Part shown: positions 36,463 to 46,210 of the stretch, piece by piece
Layout: the number at the start of each line of letters is the position of its first letter
Position numbering within the stretch: the first letter of the stretch is position 1
Source: Coriobacteriia bacterium
GTDB taxonomy: Bacteria; Actinomycetota; Coriobacteriia; Anaerosomatales; PHET01
DNA length: 64,000 bases
Assembly: GCA_034370385.1 (NCBI GenBank)
Contig: JAXMKZ010000005.1
Location: 62,001 to 126,000 of the forward strand
Direction: 5' to 3'
The notes under the pieces: model-generated
Told to the model about the DNA's origin: nothing
What the model saw: only the letters and a program-made list of their open reading frames with translations
Database searches by the model: none
Position numbers and translations under genes: made by a program

Positions 36463-36493
36463 GCAGGCCGCCCCGGAAGCCGGGGCGGCCTGC
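36463..36493. terminator. Strong GC hairpin in the intergenic gap
   Basis: GCAGGCCGCCCCGG and CCGGGGCGGCCTGC form a perfect 14-bp stem with a 3-base loop. It lies about 25 bp after the stop of the lipoprotein gene at 36518. There is no T tract, so it may act as a transcript-end stabiliser or an attenuator-type element. Confidence 0.5.
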
Positions 36494-37368: not shown

Positions 37369-40296
37369 CTAGTTAGTGGTCTTGGTCAGGCTGGGCTTGA
37401 AGCGGCGCAGGAGCAGTGAGCTCGTCACGACGCTGACGCTGGAAAGCGCCATCGCCGCACCCGCAAGCTCGGGCTTAAGGAGCCCCAAGGCCGCTACGGG
37501 GATGCCCAGCGTGTTGTAGCCAAGCGCCCACACGAAGTTCTGCTTGATCTTGCGCATCGTCGCGCGCGACAGCTCGATCGCCGTCACCACGTCACGAAGG
37601 TCGTTCTTGATGAGCACGATGCCGCCGGTCTCCATGGCGACGTCGGTACCGGCACCCATGGCGATGCCGACATCGGCAGCCGCAAGTGCAGGAGTGTCAT
37701 TGATGCCGTCGCCCACCATGGCGACCGTCTTTCCGGCCGCCTGCAGCTTGGTGACCTCGTCGGCTTTGTGCTCCGGGAGCACCTCGGCCAGCACGTGGTC
37801 GGGTGCGATGCCGGCCTGAGCGGCGATCGCTTCGGCGGTCCGGCGGTTGTCTCCGGTGATCATGTAGACGTCGACGCCGATCTTGCCCAGGCGCGCGACC
37901 GCTTCGGCCGAACTCTCCTTCAGCGTGTCTGCCACGGCCACCATTCCGGCGAGCTTCGCGCCCTCGACCCCAACGAGCATGACGGTCTTGCCCTCGCCCT
38001 CCAGCGCGTGGATGCGCGACTCGAAGGCGGCGATGTCGATGCCCTCGCGAACCATGAGCTTGCGGTTGCCGAACGCCACACGTCGGTCCATCACGGTGCC
38101 GACGACCCCGTGACCGGGAACAGCCTCGAACCCTTCGACTGCGGGCACGTCAATCCCGTCGGCCTTCGCCCGTGCGACGACAGCCTCGGCAAGCGGGTGC
38201 TCGGAGTTGCGCTCGAGCGCGGCGGCCAGCGTGAACATCCGCGTGGCGTCGTGCCCTTCGGCGAGCTCGATGTCGGTGACCACGGGCTTACCGTGAGTCA
38301 GCGTTCCGGTCTTGTCGAACACGATCGCATCGATCTTGTAGGCGGTCTCGAGTGCTTCGCCGCTCTTGATGAGGATGCCGTTCTCAGCACCCTTGCCGGT
38401 GCCGACCATGATCGCCGTCGGTGTTGCCAGACCCAACGCGCACGGGCAGGCGATGACGACGACCGAGACACCGGTCAGCAGTGCCTTCACGAACGGGGTG
38501 ATCATCATGTAGAAGTCAGGGTCCACGAAGTTCGGGACGACGAACAGCCATGCGAGGAACGTCGCGAGCGCCACGGCGAGCACGGCGGGCACGAAGACAG
38601 CGCTTATGCGGTCGGCGAAACGCTGTACGGGCGCCTTGGAGCCCTGTGCGTCCTCGACCAGCTTCACGATCTGAGCCAGCGCGGTGTCCGAACCGACCTT
38701 GGTTGCTCGGAACCGGAAGCTGCCGAGCTTGTTCATCGTGGCGCCGATGACGGTGTCTCCGACGCCCTTCTCAACCGGAATAGACTCGCCGGTGAGCATC
38801 GACTCGTCCACAGCGGAGGTGCCTGTGACCACGACACCGTCAACCGGAACCTTCTCGCCGGGGCGCACCACGATGAGGTCGCCGACGACCACCTGCTCGA
38901 TGGCCACATCGATCTCTTCGCCGCCACGCACCACGCGCGCCGTCTTGGCCGCGAGGCCCATGAGCTTCTTGATGGCGTCGCCGGTGCGACCCTTCGCCCT
39001 GGCCTCGAGCAACTTGCCCAAGAGCACGAAGGTGATGAGCAGCGCCGACGTCTCGTAGAAGACGGGCTCCATCGCAAGCGACGGCACGAACGTCGCCGCA
39101 AGCGAGTAGAAGTATGCGGCCGACGTGCCCACCGCGATGAGTGTGTCCATGTTGCCGGACTTCTGCTTCAAGGCGCCCCAGGCGCCGCGGTAGAAGCGCG
39201 CTCCGGCGATGAACTGAACCGGGGTGGCCAGCAGGAACATCAGGTACTTGCCGACCATCATCGGATCCCAGGCGCCGCCGACGGTGTTGGCCAGGAACTC
39301 AGAGACCGCGAGCGGCACCGCCATCATGAACGGCGGCACCATGGCGATGAAGAGCAGCGGGAGCGACAGTGCGAGCGAGAAGATGAACATGCGCTTCTCG
39401 GCAGCGTAGGCGCTGGCATGCGCCTCGGCGGCGACATCCTCGCCGGACGAGCCAGGAATCGTGTCGACCTTGACGGTGGCGCTGTAGCCCGCGAGCTTGA
39501 CCGCCGCGATCAGATCGTCGATTCCGATGACGGTAGGGTCGAACTCGACCGTGCCCGTCTCGATGGCCAGGTTCACGTTGGCGCCCTGGACTCCGGGCAT
39601 CGCCATGAGCGCCTTCTCGATCAGCGCTGAACAGCTGGCGCAGTGCATGCCCGTGAGCGACAGCGTGACCTTGCCGGTCACCGTCCCGGACGCGGACTTC
39701 TTCGCGGTGAGCGGCGTGGCCGTGTACCCCAGCTTCGCCACCGCTTCAGCGATCGCCACCGCATCGACCTTCGCGGGGTCGAAGCGGGCGACGAGCTTCT
39801 CCGTGGCGAGGTTCACGTTCGCGCTCTCGACGCCGTCGGTCTTGGGCAGCGCCTTCTCGATGAGCGCCGAGCAGCTGGCGCAGGTCATGCCGCCGACTGC
39901 GAAGGTGAGCTCTTCGAACTCCGGTTCGGCCGAAGCGGCCGGCACCACCGCGGGCTGCGCCGCCGATTCGATGACGGGCGTATAGGGCGCATCGAGCACA
40001 GGGGTCACGGGGACCGGTGCCTCGATGGCATCCGCCCGAGGTGCCTGCTCCGCGCCCTCTTCGAGGACCAGCGGGTCGCCGGGCGTGAACCCCGCAGCCA
40101 CGATGGCATCGACGAGCGCGTCAGGGGACACGTCATGGTCGAGCGTCACGGTGAGCGTTCCTGCTTCGGCGTCGGCCGAGGCGTCGATGACACCCTCGAT
40201 CGCACGCGCGTTGCCGGTCACGAGCTTTTCGCACGCGCCGCAGTGCATGCCCTGAACGGACAGCGTACGGACGCGATAGGTGGTATCAGCAGGCAC
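37369..40296 (-). CDS. copA: Copper-translocating P1B-type ATPase with three HMA domains
   Basis: The 975-residue pump has three N-terminal heavy-metal domains: GMHCGAC near residue 17, GMTCASC near 137 and GMHCASC near 217. Eight membrane helices follow, with the CPC metal site ([12 protein letters not shown]), the phosphorylation motif DKTGTLTHG, the TGES-type actuator (LTGES) and the nucleotide-domain HP motif (SEHPLAEA) with [10 protein letters not shown]. It exports Cu(I) across the membrane using ATP. GTG 40296 is preferred over an upstream TTG because GGAGG lies just before it. The gene overlaps the small upstream gene by 11 bp. Confidence 0.96.
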
Positions 40297-40549
40297 GGGG
40301 GCCTCCAAACCCGGGGTCCTCGTCGTAGGCGATCTCCAGCGGATAGACGCCGGAGGCCTCGAGGGCCCTGACGAACGCTGCTTCGCCTGAGGTCGGCGCG
40401 AGGAACGCGGTCAGGTAACCCCGATCGTTGATGTCGTGGGCGATCACGTCGTCGCTGTCATCGAGCAGTAGGCCCAGCATGCTGAACGATCCCTGCCCTC
40501 CGGCGAGTCGTGCCCGCACCACATGTCCATTGAACTGTTCTGCGCACAT
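40286..40549 (-). CDS. Small protein of unknown function overlapping copA
   Basis: The 87-residue soluble protein starts [15 protein letters not shown] and contains [25 protein letters not shown] and ends PGFGGPRAC. It does not resemble CopZ (no CxxC metal motif near the N-terminus). GTGAGG lies upstream. It sits between a cupredoxin gene (8-bp gap) and copA (11-bp overlap), so it belongs to the copper operon. The role is unknown. Confidence 0.6.
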
Positions 40550-41105: not shown

Positions 41106-42428
41106 TTAGTTGAACATTCCGCCGAGCGCCATGCCGGCGAAGATGGCCGCCCCGATGGCGACAGCGATGATGATCACTTCAGTCGGGTTGAATCCGAGAA
41201 AGCCCGAGGGCTGCTCGGTCTGAGCCGGAGCCGATCGTGCGTGCTGAGCGGATCCGTTAGGGCCGATCGATGCACCCGACGGGGAGGCGAGACGCCGGTC
41301 GCGACGGTTCGCGACCCACAGCGCAGCTCCGGCGGCGATGCCGGCCGCGAGCAGCCACAGCAACGGAGAGGCGCCGCTTGCGCCACCGCCACCGCCGCCA
41401 ACGATGAGCTGGCCCGACATCATGCCCATACCGCAGGTGAGTGTGTAGGTTCCCGCCTTGGCAGCCGGAAGCTCGACGGCCGTGACCGCGAACGGAGCGA
41501 CGTCAACAAGCACGCCGAGCTGCGGCAACGCGACTTGATCGGAGCACGCCGAGTCCTCGCGCCGATCGACCATGATCCGCACGGGGGTGTCTGCCGGAAT
41601 CTGTATGGCCGCCGGCACGAACTGGACGTTCTCGATGACGAGCGGTATCTCGACGACGCCGTCGGCGCCCTTCGTATACTCGCCCGCGTCAGCGATGGGC
41701 CCACCGAGCACCGCGGCCTTCACGCTGTTGAAGTTCACCGGCGCCCCCGTGAGCATGAGCCCACGGTTGATGAAGACGAGCCCGAAGATGATGACGCCGA
41801 CGGCGAGCACCATCATCATGCGTTCCTTCCACACCCGCGGGATCATCGATCCGGCGGTGCCGAAGGCGATCATCAGCGGTGCGGTGCCCAGTCCGAAGGC
41901 CGCCATTCCGAGCGCTCCGGTGGCGGCGCTGCCCGACGCGGCAGCGGTGACTTGGGCGGCCATGAGCGGGCCACACGGCAGCAGTCCGGTCAGCAGACCG
42001 AACATGACCGGAGTGGCCAGGGTGCCCTCGCCGGCCTCAGCGTCCGAGTTGGCCTTGCGGCGCAGCTTCATGAGCGCGGTCATCACGAACCTGGGCGGAC
42101 GCGGATTGAAGCGGGCTGCCCACCGGACCTTGCCGGTCATCCCCAGGCCGAGCACGATCATGAACGCGCCCGCCAGGTACATGACGTAGGGACGCAGAGC
42201 ATCAAAGTTGATGAATGCGCCCAGGGCGCCGAGCAACAGACCGACGAGCATGTAGCTCACGATCTTCGCGCCTTGGTAGGCGAAGTTCGGGGTCAGCCGG
42301 CGGTACCACGGACCATCCTCATCAGCCTTGACGGCATAGGTGAGAACGAGCGGGCCGCACATCGACACACAGTGAAGACTGGTGCCAAGGCCAAGCACGA
42401 GCATCGAAACGATGTAGGGAAACTCCAC
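41106..42428 (-). CDS. TauE/SafE-type membrane protein fused to a cupredoxin domain
   Basis: The 440-residue product has an N-terminal six-helix domain of the SafE/UreH-like type, with the diagnostic SLHCVSMCGPL near residue 18 and LTGLLPCGPLMAAQ. A cupredoxin-like domain follows (about 265-345; VQFVPAAIQIPADTPVRIMVDRREDSACSDQV ... GTYTLTCGMGMMSGQLIV), then a Gly-rich linker, a helix and a final hydrophobic segment. The Cys/Met residues suggest transport or delivery of copper. It heads the copper operon, and GAGGAG precedes its GTG. The substrate is inferred. Confidence 0.85.
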   Translation of the reverse strand: MEFPYIVSMLVLGLGTSLHCVSMCGPLVLTYAVKADEDGPWYRRLTPNFAYQGAKIVSYMLVGLLLGALGAFINFDALRPYVMYLAGAFMIVLGLGMTGKVRWAARFNPRPPRFVMTALMKLRRKANSDAEAGEGTLATPVMFGLLTGLLPCGPLMAAQVTAAASGSAATGALGMAAFGLGTAPLMIAFGTAGSMIPRVWKERMMMVLAVGVIIFGLVFINRGLMLTGAPVNFNSVKAAVLGGPIADAGEYTKGADGVVEIPLVIENVQFVPAAIQIPADTPVRIMVDRREDSACSDQVALPQLGVLVDVAPFAVTAVELPAAKAGTYTLTCGMGMMSGQLIVGGGGGGASGASPLLWLLAAGIAAGAALWVANRRDRRLASPSGASIGPNGSAQHARSAPAQTEQPSGFLGFNPTEVIIIAVAIGAAIFAGMALGGMFN

Positions 42429-42536: not shown

Positions 42537-42902
42537 TCAGAGCCTGAGGCGTTGTCCGAGCGGTGGCTCGGGGGGCGGTGGTGGCGCGAGCTCCACCACG
42601 AACACCGGCTTCGAAGCGAAGGCCGGCATCATCAAAGCTACGGCCGCGACGAGCGCGCCGAGTAGCGAGAGTGTGAGCGAGTCGGCCCCGGCCGGGACCA
42701 CTGCTGCAGGCGAGGAGCTGAACACGTACTCGCCGCCACAATCCGAGAACAGACCCGCGCTCATCTGCATCCCGAACGGCCGGGCGCCACCCATGTCCAT
42801 CGAACAGCCGACCATGCGACAGGTCGGCACCGCAACAGCGAGCACCGCCAGAACCACGGCGAGCGCGATGAGGGCCTTTCGGCTTGTGAGTAGCGCGTTC
42901 AT
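42537..42902 (-). CDS. Membrane protein with Met/Cys-rich loop
   Basis: From ATG 42902 the product has 121 residues: an N-terminal helix, a loop with CRMVGCSMDMGG and MQMSAGLFSDCGG, a second helix and a Pro-rich tail. The Met/Cys content of the loop fits copper or other soft-metal binding. It lies between the nickel transporter gene and the TauE/SafE gene, 108 bp upstream of the latter. Alternative start is GTG 42941. No family recognised. Confidence 0.6.
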   Translation of the reverse strand: MNALLTSRKALIALAVVLAVLAVAVPTCRMVGCSMDMGGARPFGMQMSAGLFSDCGGEYVFSSSPAAVVPAGADSLTLSLLGALVAAVALMMPAFASKPVFVVELAPPPPPEPPLGQRLRL

Positions 42903-42951
42903 GCCGCCCGTACTGCAAGACGTGTGCCGAACGAGTTGCACCTTCGTGATA

Positions 42952-44001
42952 CTAGGACGCCGCCGGGTCCGCAGGTGGCCCGCCCTTGCGTCGGCGCAGG
43001 GCGAACCCGGCGCCGACGGCGATCAGCAGCACGGCCCCGGCACCCACCAGACCCGACGTAGTGGTGCCCACATCCACGGCCGACCCGCTCGCAGCGCCCA
43101 CTTCTTCGGTCTGCGCGCCGTCGGTGGGAAACGCGTAGTCCGGCAGCACGGCGGTGAGCCCTTGGAACTCAGCGAGGGCGGCGTGGACACCGGCCGGCGC
43201 CTCAAGCTCTGCGGTTCCGGCAACCTTCTCGATCGACCACTCAAGACCGTCCGAGTACGGCGATGCGAACCACGAGAGAAGGCCGCCGGCTACCACGGCC
43301 GCGATCGCCAGGCCGACGATCACCGTCCGAAGTCTCAGTCCGGCCACGGAGTCGCGATTCGACGTGCGGGTAAGTAGCTCAGGCTGAGCAATCGACACGA
43401 AGAACACGACCGCGCCGGTGACGAACCCCTCAACGATACCGATCGCGAGATGGATGGGCTGCATGAGCGCGAGAAACGCCGTGAACGGTAGCGCGCTGAT
43501 CCCCGAAAACAGCGTCTGAAGGACCACGGCGAACGACCCGAGCTGCAGCGCCGCGACCGCCGCGATGATGGCGCCGCTGACCACGCGGAACTTGCTCGTC
43601 GCATCCCCCGCGATGGGCTTGTAGATGAACGGGTAGGCGACGAACGCCGGGAAGAACCCGAGGTTGAAGATGTTGGACCCGAGAGCGAGCAACCCGCCGT
43701 CACCGAAGAAGAGCGCTTGGACGGTGAGTACCGAAGCCATCACGATGAACGCTGCGTGGGGTCCCAGCAGAATGGCCAGTATCAGTCCGCCCCCGAGATG
43801 CCCGCTCGACCCCGTGCCCGGAATCGTGAAGTTCAACATCTGCGATGCGAAGATGAAGGCGCCGGCGACTCCCATGAGCGGGATGCGGGCCGCGTCGTTC
43901 TCCTCCCTCACTTTCTTGGCGCAGTAGACCGTCGTGACGGCGGTGGCGGCCCACATGGTGGCGCCGACAGCGGGTGAAAGCAGTGCGTCTGCCATGTGCA
44001 T
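42952..44001 (-). CDS. cbiM: ECF nickel/cobalt transporter substrate-binding subunit (CbiM/NikMN fusion)
   Basis: The family needs an N-terminal Met-His to coordinate the metal. ATG 44001 gives [13 protein letters not shown], so I prefer it to ATG 44016, which would add five residues. The 349-residue product has the CbiM membrane core ([26 protein letters not shown] with ligand His residues, [14 protein letters not shown]) and, at the C-terminal end, an additional module like CbiN/NikN ([16 protein letters not shown]). The divergent NikR makes nickel the likelier cargo. Confidence 0.9.
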
Positions 44002-44053
44002 CTGTGGACTCTCCATTCCGCGCGTTCTTGTCGAAGTCGTATCCCATGGGTGT

Positions 44054-44072
44054 CACGCATCACCAATGCGTG
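44054..44072. promoter_or_regulatory. Inverted repeat upstream of cbiM
   Basis: CACGCAT and ATGCGTG are perfect 7-bp arms around a 5-base centre, 53 bp upstream of the cbiM start. It may be a second regulator site or an overlapping promoter element for the transporter gene. Confidence 0.4.
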
Positions 44073-44158
44073 CTACGCTCGAGCTCAGGTTCACCTCCCC
44101 GCGGCATGCTGTCAAGCATCCTGGGGCAGTTCGCACGAATTCGTGACCGCATGTTCCC

Positions 44159-44192
44159 GTCATGGCACGCAGCCGATGGACCGTGCCATGAC
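44159..44192. promoter_or_regulatory. Putative NikR operator upstream of nikR
   Basis: GTCATGGCACG and CGTGCCATGAC are perfect 11-bp arms with a 12-bp spacer. Inside them, ATGGCA-N16-TGCCAT has the 6-16-6 geometry known for the E. coli NikR operator. It lies 23 bp before the nikR start, between the divergent nikR and cbiM genes. Confidence 0.6.
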
Positions 44193-44214
44193 CTGCGCGA
44201 AAGGAGCGTCTCTG

Positions 44215-44634
44215 ATGTCGGAGATAGTGCGTTTCGGAGTTTCGACCGATGAGCGGCTGTTGGAGCGATTCGACGCGCTCATCGCCCAGAAGGGATACGT
44301 CAACCGCTCTGAAGCGGTGCGCGACCTGATTCGCAATGCGCTCGTCGAGGAGCAGTGGAGCGGCGGCGAGGGTGAGGCGGTCGGAACGGTGACGTTGGTC
44401 TACGACCACCACTCCACCGATCTGGCCGACAAGCTCACCGAGCACCAACACTCACACCACGAAGAGGTCATCTCCACGCTCCACATCCACCTCGACTCCC
44501 ACAACTGCTTGGAGGTCGCGGTGCTTCGGGGCTCCGTGGATGTCATCAAGCACATCGCTGACGGGTTGATCGGTACCAAGGGTGTCAAGCACGGCAAGTT
44601 CGTGGCCACCACCACCGGCGACGACCTGGTCTAG
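44215..44634 (+). CDS. nikR: Nickel-responsive regulator
   Basis: The 139-residue product has an N-terminal ribbon-helix-helix ([37 protein letters not shown]) and a C-terminal ACT-like nickel domain with the ligand set seen in NikR ([37 protein letters not shown], three His and one Cys). AAAGGAG precedes ATG 44215. It represses nickel uptake genes when nickel is high. It is divergent from cbiM and first in the operon with cbiQ and cbiO. Confidence 0.95.
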
Positions 44635-44645
44635 GGCGAGAGGCC

Positions 44646-45458
44646 ATGTCCGCCATCGAATCCGGCATGTACCAACTGGGCTGGCTCGACCAGTTCTCAC
44701 GCGGCGACACCCCACTGCACCGGATAGACCCGCGAGCGAAAGTGCTCGCCACCTTCGTCTTCTTGGTCTGCGTCGTCTCGTTCGACCAGTACGACCTGCT
44801 GGCCTTGGCCCCGTTCGCGCTCTTCCCGATAGCTTTGGCCAGCCAGAGCGGCATGCCCGGACGCGAGCTGTGGAAGCGCCTTGCGGCCGTGGCTCCGTTC
44901 GCCGTGCTCGTCGGTGCGCTCAACCCGTTCTTCGACACCGAGGCCGTCGTCCAAATCGGGTCGGTGGTGATATCGGGCGGGGTCTTGAGCTGGATGACGA
45001 TCATCGCCCGCTTCCTGCTGACAACGAGCGTGGCGCTGATCCTCATCGCCACGACGGGGATGGCCGGGGTCTGCGCCGGCCTTGAGAAGCTCGGGCTGCC
45101 CGATGTCCTATCGACCCAGTTGCTGCTCCTCTACCGCTACCTCTTCGTCCTGGCTGAGGAGATCATGCGCATGGCGCGTGCCCGGTCGCTGCGCTCCTTC
45201 GGCAGCAAGGGCATGGGGCCGACCGTGTACGCGAGCATGCTCGGTCACCTGCTCATTCGCACGGTTGCCCGCGCACAACGCGTCTACAACGCGATGAGCT
45301 GCCGGGGCTTCGATGGCCGCGTCCGAACCATGCGCGTGCTCAAGATGCGCCGCGCTGACTGGGTCTTCCTCGCAGGATGGTCTGCGGCGTTCGTCGTCTT
45401 CCGCACGGTGAACATCTCCGTGCTGCTTGGCAACCTGATCACGGGAGTCCTCTCATGA
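44646..45458 (+). CDS. cbiQ: ECF transporter transmembrane (T) component
   Basis: The 270-residue membrane protein starts in the cytoplasm with GDTPLHRIDPRAKVLATFVFLV, a typical CbiQ motif. The two coupling-helix motifs appear as MARARSLR and YNAMSCRGFDGRVR, matching the Ala-Arg-Gly-type signatures. It links the substrate subunit to the ATPase. The gene follows nikR by 11 bp, and its stop overlaps cbiO as ATGA. Confidence 0.93.
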   Translation: MSAIESGMYQLGWLDQFSRGDTPLHRIDPRAKVLATFVFLVCVVSFDQYDLLALAPFALFPIALASQSGMPGRELWKRLAAVAPFAVLVGALNPFFDTEAVVQIGSVVISGGVLSWMTIIARFLLTTSVALILIATTGMAGVCAGLEKLGLPDVLSTQLLLLYRYLFVLAEEIMRMARARSLRSFGSKGMGPTVYASMLGHLLIRTVARAQRVYNAMSCRGFDGRVRTMRVLKMRRADWVFLAGWSAAFVVFRTVNISVLLGNLITGVLS

Positions 45459-46210
45459 GCCATCACTCCATCTCCGTGTGCGCCCTCGGCTTCGCCTATC
45501 CGGACGGCACCCGCGCGTTGACCGACGTCTCCTTCGAGGTGGGGCACGGCGAATCGATTGCCCTGGTCGGTGCGAACGGCGCAGGCAAGTCGACACTGCT
45601 CGCCCATCTCAACGGCTTGCACGAAGCGCAGGAAGGGTCCGTGCGAATCGGCGAGGTTCCGCTGGCCAAGGAGACGCTCGCTGATGTCCGCAAGACCGTG
45701 GGGATGGTGTTCCAAGACCCCGACGACCAGCTGTTCATGCCGACGGTGCGCGAGGACGTCGCGTTCGGACCGATGAACCTCGGGCTACCGACCGAGTGCA
45801 TCGTGGAGCGCGTCGACGACGCACTGGCCCGCGTGGGCGCTTCCGACCTCGCCGAGCGCCCACCCTATCGCCTGTCAGGCGGCGAGAAGCGCGCGGTCGC
45901 GATCGCCACCGTGCTTGCGATGAAGCCCAGCATTCTCGTCTTGGACGAGCCGTCGAGTGACCTCGATCCGCGCGCGCGCAGGCGACTCATCGAGCTGCTC
46001 AAGTCGTTCGAGCACACGAAGATCATCGCGACACACGACCTCGATCTGGCCGTCGAACTGTGCGAGCGCACCATCGTGATGCGCGATGGCGCGCTCGTGG
46101 CCGATGGTCCCACGAGCGAGGTCTTCGCAGACGAGCCACTACTCGAACAGTCCGGGCTGGAACAGCCGTGGTCGTTGCGCGGGTGCGCGGCTTGCGGGGC
46201 CACACGATGA
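45455..46210 (+). CDS. cbiO: ECF transporter ATP-binding protein
   Basis: The 251-residue ATPase has Walker A GANGAGKST, the Q-loop in MVFQDPDDQLF, a variant signature LSGGEKRAVA, Walker B ILVLDEPSSDLD and a switch His in IIATHDLDLAVEL. These are typical of CbiO/NikO. The C-terminal CAACG near the end is unusual and could bind metal. The open frame starts upstream but only the ATG at 45455 gives the family N-terminus. Confidence 0.93.
   Translation: MSHHSISVCALGFAYPDGTRALTDVSFEVGHGESIALVGANGAGKSTLLAHLNGLHEAQEGSVRIGEVPLAKETLADVRKTVGMVFQDPDDQLFMPTVREDVAFGPMNLGLPTECIVERVDDALARVGASDLAERPPYRLSGGEKRAVAIATVLAMKPSILVLDEPSSDLDPRARRRLIELLKSFEHTKIIATHDLDLAVELCERTIVMRDGALVADGPTSEVFADEPLLEQSGLEQPWSLRGCAACGATR

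Follow-up and report, generated by a model that had tools for sequence, protein, structure and literature searches.

Two probable NikR operators in a divergent nickel-uptake locus of a Coriobacteriia bacterium

In a 64,000-nucleotide stretch of DNA from a Coriobacteriia bacterium (hereafter the window), a perfect palindrome lies upstream of nikR. It is probably the nikR-proximal NikR operator of a divergent nickel-uptake locus (nikMN / nikR-nikQ-nikO), in which a second operator at 44050–44076 would serve nikMN. Our best reading is thus one of two predicted NikR operators, one for each divergent promoter, with the palindrome serving nikR. As a probable NikR operator, the site would add a bacterial group that has been little studied to those known to use this kind of switch. 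The present work provides a concrete candidate motif of NikR for one order of uncultured Coriobacteriia, which would help to call nickel regulons in the genomes of this order. In addition, the motif would link those of Deltaproteobacteria and Helicobacter pylori as variants of a single half-site that is used in several directions.

Genes of the nickel locus

The features of the locus are collected in Table 1. The product of nikR carries both a ribbon-helix-helix and a NikR_C domain (30.2 bits for PF01402 and 104.4 bits for PF08753) and scored well above the NF003381 cutoff of 105; the older equivalog TIGR02793 was missed (132.5 bits against a cutoff of 175.45). When the protein was aligned to the solved chains 1q5v and 2bj1, the His/Cys ligand positions (QH, LHIH and C) were all present, and we take these residues to be the His3Cys nickel ligands. 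The nikR gene is divergent from a cbiM-type gene, and cbiQ and cbiO are located downstream of nikR. The start of cbiM was placed at 44001 because of an upstream GGAG, with an alternative ATG at 44016. Its product remained below the cutoffs of all NCBIfam CbiM equivalogs; the call as CbiM plus PDGLE was made by Pfam. From the gene context, the locus encodes a predicted nickel ECF transporter of the nikMN-QO type.

Table 1. Coordinates of genes and predicted regulatory elements of the nickel locus in the window
Feature	Position	Strand	Basis
cbiM/nikM fused to PDGLE (nikMN type)	42952..44001	-	PF01891, PF13190
Site A, direct repeat GTGTCAC-N13-GTGCTAC, 20 bp spacing; predicted NikR operator of cbiM/nikM, probable	44050..44076	.	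profiles and conservation in relatives
TTGACA, conserved GTCAA column; putative -35 of cbiM promoter	44110..44115	-	alignment of 14 intergenic regions; inferred
TTCGCA, conserved element; putative -35 of nikR	44130..44135	+	alignment of 14 intergenic regions; inferred
Site B, perfect inverted repeat; predicted NikR operator of nikR, probable	44159..44192	.	sequence, window-free profile, alignment to relatives
nikR, 139 aa, RHH + NikR_C	44215..44634	+	NF003381 (215.9 bits), PF08753, PF01402
cbiQ/nikQ	44646..45458	+	TIGR02454 (144.7 bits, cutoff 111.8)
cbiO/nikO ATPase	45455..46210	+	TIGR01166 (218.2 bits, cutoff 211.8)

The locus adjoins a gene for a P-type metal ATPase with three HMA stretches (37369–40308). 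Also nearby are a DsbD-like membrane protein fused to a cupredoxin-like domain (41106–42428) and an open reading frame of 134 aa (42537–42941) for which no family match was found.

A perfect palindrome upstream of nikR

A first-pass annotation of this DNA had pointed out perfect inverted repeats just upstream of nikR, between the divergent genes, and this was borne out. The sequence GTCATGGCACG-N12-CGTGCCATGAC was matched once in the window and in 0 of 100 shuffles, and it occurs at a single location in the 2.69-Mb genome. The same holds for the core ATGGCA-N16-TGCCAT that had been highlighted, which is found at one place in the genome. The palindrome spans positions −56 to −23 relative to the nikR start and contains the half-sites ATGGCAC (44162–44168) and GTGCCAT (44183–44189), with a start-to-start spacing of 21 bp. 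Its arms extend past the 7-bp half-site by an outer GTC/GAC.

The palindrome is unusual for the 213-bp intergenic region, though perfect 11-bp arms are not rare across the window. For arms of 11 and loops of 3–25, five matches were listed in the window, compared to a mean of 1.7 in 20 Markov surrogates, and four of these five belong to one nested repeat at 36463–36493. Among surrogates of the 213-bp intergenic region, only 2 of 3000 (0.07%) held such a repeat. The nested repeat lies between genes, is a longer perfect inverted repeat with a loop down to 3, and is probably a terminator-like stem.

A second, more conserved site on the cbiM side

We built a half-site profile from the sites of 36 relatives, leaving the window out. 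In the cbiM–nikR intergenic region exactly four half-sites stood out with this profile: the 9-mers CGTGCTACG (14.5 bits) and GGTGTCACG (7.0 bits) and both palindrome arms (7.28 bits each), the next score being −0.4. The palindrome arms are therefore weaker half-sites than the best one, and all four are of the type that is common to other nikR loci of the lineage. Position 4 of the half-site is C or T in the profile of the relatives, C accounting for 51% in one half and 64% in the other. A whole-site profile was then made from those 33 of the 36 sites that scored at least 13 of 14, again excluding the window. Its best match in the window's own genome was 44050–44076 (E 0.0029), followed by a match with E 1.83 (150 of 403 candidates scored).

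In both sites the two half-sites are about two helical turns apart (21 bp in the palindrome and 20 bp in site A). The partner site on the cbiM side had been missed in the first-pass annotation and is more conserved than the palindrome. Given site A, the proposal of a single site controlling both transcripts was dropped. The prediction of a NikR-type site itself gained support, as the arms were recovered with a profile free of the window. A half-site of a wholly new type was not supported: GTGCCAT is a variant of GTGYTAC and close to the deltaproteobacterial GTGTTAC.

Conservation of the half-sites upstream of nikR

NikR was present in 60 of the 99 genomes searched (the window's own among the 99), and 64 named loci were included as well. 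The nearest named nikR loci come mostly from MAGs labelled Coriobacteriia, Actinobacteria or Actinomycetota, and one from Anaerosomatales. Among the relatives listed, with at least 64% identity, GTGYTAC and GTAGCAC are recurrent words of the regions upstream of nikR. Pairs of 7-bp half-sites (GTGYTAC or its complement) 20–22 bp apart precede this gene in the window's order. For counting, 126 loci were reduced to 105 by collapsing those with identical last 150 bases and dropping those with fewer than 250 bases upstream. The loci scored derive from many families of the order; since nikR loci are related, the shuffles given here do not gauge independent events.

In the group with at least 69% identity (31 upstream regions, window included, L021, L022, L023 and L025 left out), a direct repeat at d=20 was found in 25 regions compared to 0.24 in shuffles, and an inverted pair at d=22 in 14 compared to 0.11. 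The direct repeat at d=20 was also found in 13 of the 18 regions in the group with 54–63% identity (shuffles 0.06). Among 41 loci from other lineages, six had the direct pair at d=20 (shuffles 0.15), five an inverted pair at d=20 and five an everted pair at d=21. Fifteen of the 105 loci (L112–L126), more distant members of the class that fall outside all three identity groups, were counted separately, and the direct pair at d=20 was found in none of them. The motif is thus a feature of the order and of a few neighbours and does not extend to the whole of the Coriobacteriia. In total, the direct pair at d=20 was absent from 6 of 31, 5 of 18 and 35 of 41 regions. Among the six misses in the first group, L013 and L071 have an everted pair and L092 an inverted one, and no convincing half-site pair was seen in L083, L086 and L088.

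An alignment of the intergenic region was made with 14 of 25 loci, 11 being omitted for their different length or layout. The two arms of the palindrome line up here with the nikR-side pair that most other loci carry, which consists of GTGCTAY or GTGSCAC and similar words, N14/15, and GTRGCAC and similar words. We thus regard the palindrome as the window's symmetric form of a second site whose position is conserved. The geometry was read in 16 loci (window included) that were picked by hand after their layouts had been read. Eleven of these have an inverted nikR-side pair, three a direct and two (the window and L074) an everted one, while all 16 have a direct pair on the cbiM side. The calls of direction are weak in several rows because of words like GTGSCAC.

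The first-pass annotation had made conservation in orthologous loci a touchstone of its proposal. Position and half-site type of site B are indeed kept in part of the order, namely in the 15 hand-picked relatives, with other layouts elsewhere, but the palindrome core ATGGCAC-N13-15-GTGCCAT was found in 0 of 98 other related genomes. In the three other genomes of the same family, two have a nikR-side direct pair at d=20, and the third a single inverted pair at d=21 (−158/−137).

Genome-wide distribution of the motif

A motif search in related genomes, which had also been suggested, was positive for the direct repeat only. The pattern GTGYTAC-N13-GTGYTAC, taken from these loci, gave 31 matches in 29 of the 99 genomes, 24 of them within 300 bp upstream of nikR, compared to four matches for the backwards control. 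The window's genome is outside these 29, site A having one mismatch. A search of this genome with two mismatches allowed was uninformative (18 matches versus 68 in the backwards control). The inverted pattern GTGYTAY-N14/15-GTRGCAC was not enriched genome-wide; its control matched more often. As the core was absent from the 98 other genomes and the inverted pattern did not rise above its control, the case for site B comes from position and profile and not from a genome-wide signal of its own.

With the 33-site profile, 41 of the 99 genomes had matches at E up to 0.1, a count that includes training loci. From the matches away from the nikR site, a subset of 18 stretches (17 in relatives and the one in the window's own genome with E 1.83) was annotated by script, and ten proteins near such matches were classified by Pfam. 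Among these matches, we found some that precede CbiM genes, in G003, G045 and G073 by Pfam and in G058 by the start MHMADALISP only. Others are located before genes for Peripla_BP_2 proteins (G011:C64 and G058:C21) or for an SBP_bac_5 protein (G011:C200). Further matches are close to genes for a DtxR-type regulator or a subunit of serine dehydratase, for which a link to nickel is not evident, and several are unexplained.

Putative promoters and proposed regulation

In the intergenic alignment, the minus-strand TTGAC and the plus-strand TTCGCA have the look of −35 elements of two back-to-back promoters, in which case each operator would cover the start of its own transcript. The putative −10 of cbiM, GAACCT (44087–44092), is poor. 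No promoter in the region reached the threshold of a sigma-70 scan, so the positions of both promoters, taken from the alignment, are putative. A terminator-like stem (44003–44022; shuffles 0.1) was seen within the cbiM leader.

In the proposed mechanism, a nickel-loaded NikR tetramer would set one ribbon-helix-helix dimer on each 7-bp half-site, and half-sites that are 20–22 bp, or two helical turns, apart would be spanned by one tetramer. The palindrome overlaps the presumed transcription start of nikR, where bound NikR would bring about autorepression of nikR-nikQO. Site A is placed immediately downstream of the presumed promoter of cbiM, where bound NikR would repress nikMN.

As a speculation with a low chance of being right, NikR of this group might read near-symmetric 7-mers (GT-N3-AC), so that half-site direction would be free, and two NikR tetramers about 114 bp (near 11 turns) apart across the back-to-back promoters might act together, perhaps by looping. 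Across species, the nikR-side pair occurs in inverted, direct and everted forms, while its spacing stays at 21–22 bp. The centre distance of the two pairs is 111.5–115 bp (sd 0.82) in the 16 picked loci. In the 14 of these where the distance to the cbiM start was read, it lies between 32 and 105. The spacing between the pairs is not universal: it is about 86 bp in L069 and about 69 bp in L093, both from the window's family, and the geometry of the promoters might be enough to keep the centre distance constant.

Alternative readings of the palindrome

A different dimeric regulator might bind the palindrome, with NikR using the cbiM-side site only. The outer bases by which the perfect arms exceed the NikR half-site would suit such a regulator, as would the lack of the core in the other 98 genomes. 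However, both arms fit the half-site profile of NikR loci and sit where relatives carry their second pair, and we consider a separate regulator unlikely.

It is quite improbable that the repeat instead acts as an RNA hairpin in the nikR 5′ leader, with the 11-bp stem upstream of the Shine-Dalgarno sequence tuning translation or mRNA stability. The stem is part of the predicted fold of 44120–44235 and ends seven bases before AAAGGAG at 44200, but the fold has a z-score of only −1.43, with 16 of 200 shuffles folding equally well. Pairing was not conserved when counted in 17 hand-picked loci (window included): the 7-mer arms are fully paired in 1 of 16 relatives, and on average 6.4 of the 11 arm positions pair, whereas the half-site pattern GTRNYAC is retained at 5.2 and 5.9 of 6 positions. 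A comparison with Rfam gave two matches (E 0.15 and 0.94), both far below their gathering scores. The weak fold, the single paired relative and the missing Rfam support ruled out the hairpin as the main reading.

A functionless chance palindrome, which the mean of 1.7 such repeats per window-sized surrogate might suggest, is hardly credible given the 2 of 3000 intergenic surrogates and arms that fit an independent profile built without the window.

Comparison with known NikR systems

We compared the predicted NikR operators and their regulator with NikR systems described elsewhere. The residues aligned with R3, T5 and T7 of E. coli NikR, presumably its DNA-contacting positions (we take chain 1q5v to be this protein), are R6, G8 and S10 in the window protein. 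Among 78 proteins with at least 54% identity, these three beta-strand positions read RGS in 53, RGA in 12, RSS in six, RSA in five, and RGT and RST in one each. For the NikR of Geobacter uraniireducens, Benanti and Chivers are said to have described a distinct binding mode in 2010.

The accessible part of PMC545781 gives the deltaproteobacterial NikR motif as GTGTTAC-[N13/14]-GTAACAC upstream of nikMQO-type operons, with an everted GTAACAC-[N13/14]-GTGTTAC in Desulfotalea psychrophila and Desulfovibrio vulgaris. As far as that text goes, the two systems share the half-site (GTGYTAC/GTGTTAC), the 20–21 bp spacing and the nik(MN)QO targets. In contrast to the inverted and everted pairs described there, the main site here is a direct repeat. 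Further differences are the C or T at position 4, a separate pair for each divergent promoter and the GTGCCAT half-sites in the palindrome of the window. The same part of PMC545781 cites the E. coli/enterobacterial operator GTATGAT-[N13/14]-ATCATAC; its 7-14-7 layout is common to the palindrome, which is in line with the predicted NikR-type site, while the half-site differs.

For Helicobacter pylori NikR, the portion of PMC5385501 available describes a TRWYA dyad 15 nt apart, with 20 nt, or two turns, between the centres. TGYTA within GTGYTAC fits TRNYA, and the direct repeat here has exactly 15 nt between the pentamers and 20 bp between their centres. A strict GTG..AC frame is found here, unlike the A/T-rich pseudo-palindromic sites described in that portion for H. 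pylori. No NikR motif is given in the accessible part of PMC2667541. Among the literature found for NikR together with Coriobacteri-, none was evidently on NikR sites, which does not imply that such sites are unpublished, as most subscription papers lay beyond the search.

Further observations in related genomes

A small protein of about 83 aa, usually starting with MC and containing a QQWLEQLHHLADH-like stretch, was found in 88 of the 99 related genomes (for instance L200:1237-1488 on the minus strand, and G000:C11:149577-149825 in the window's own genome). Pfam gave no match to it, and NCBIfam none above cutoff. Its gene lies on the same strand as nikR and at most 300 bp upstream of it in 24 of the 60 nikR-bearing genomes, and in several of these a NikR-type site lies between the two genes.

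Six nikR loci of the Desulfuromonadales type (L022, L025, L026, L029, L035 and L038) have repeated upstream words like CACTATATCTTGT. These words resemble NrdR boxes, and the region may therefore belong to a neighbouring gene. Some loci are filed in unexpected places: L009, filed as an archaeon, has a nikR locus of the window's kind, and L021, filed as a gammaproteobacterium, stands beside Desulfuromonadales-like loci. L199 (G058) and L211 (G011) have a nearly identical stretch in common. These oddities may reflect binning errors or transfer.
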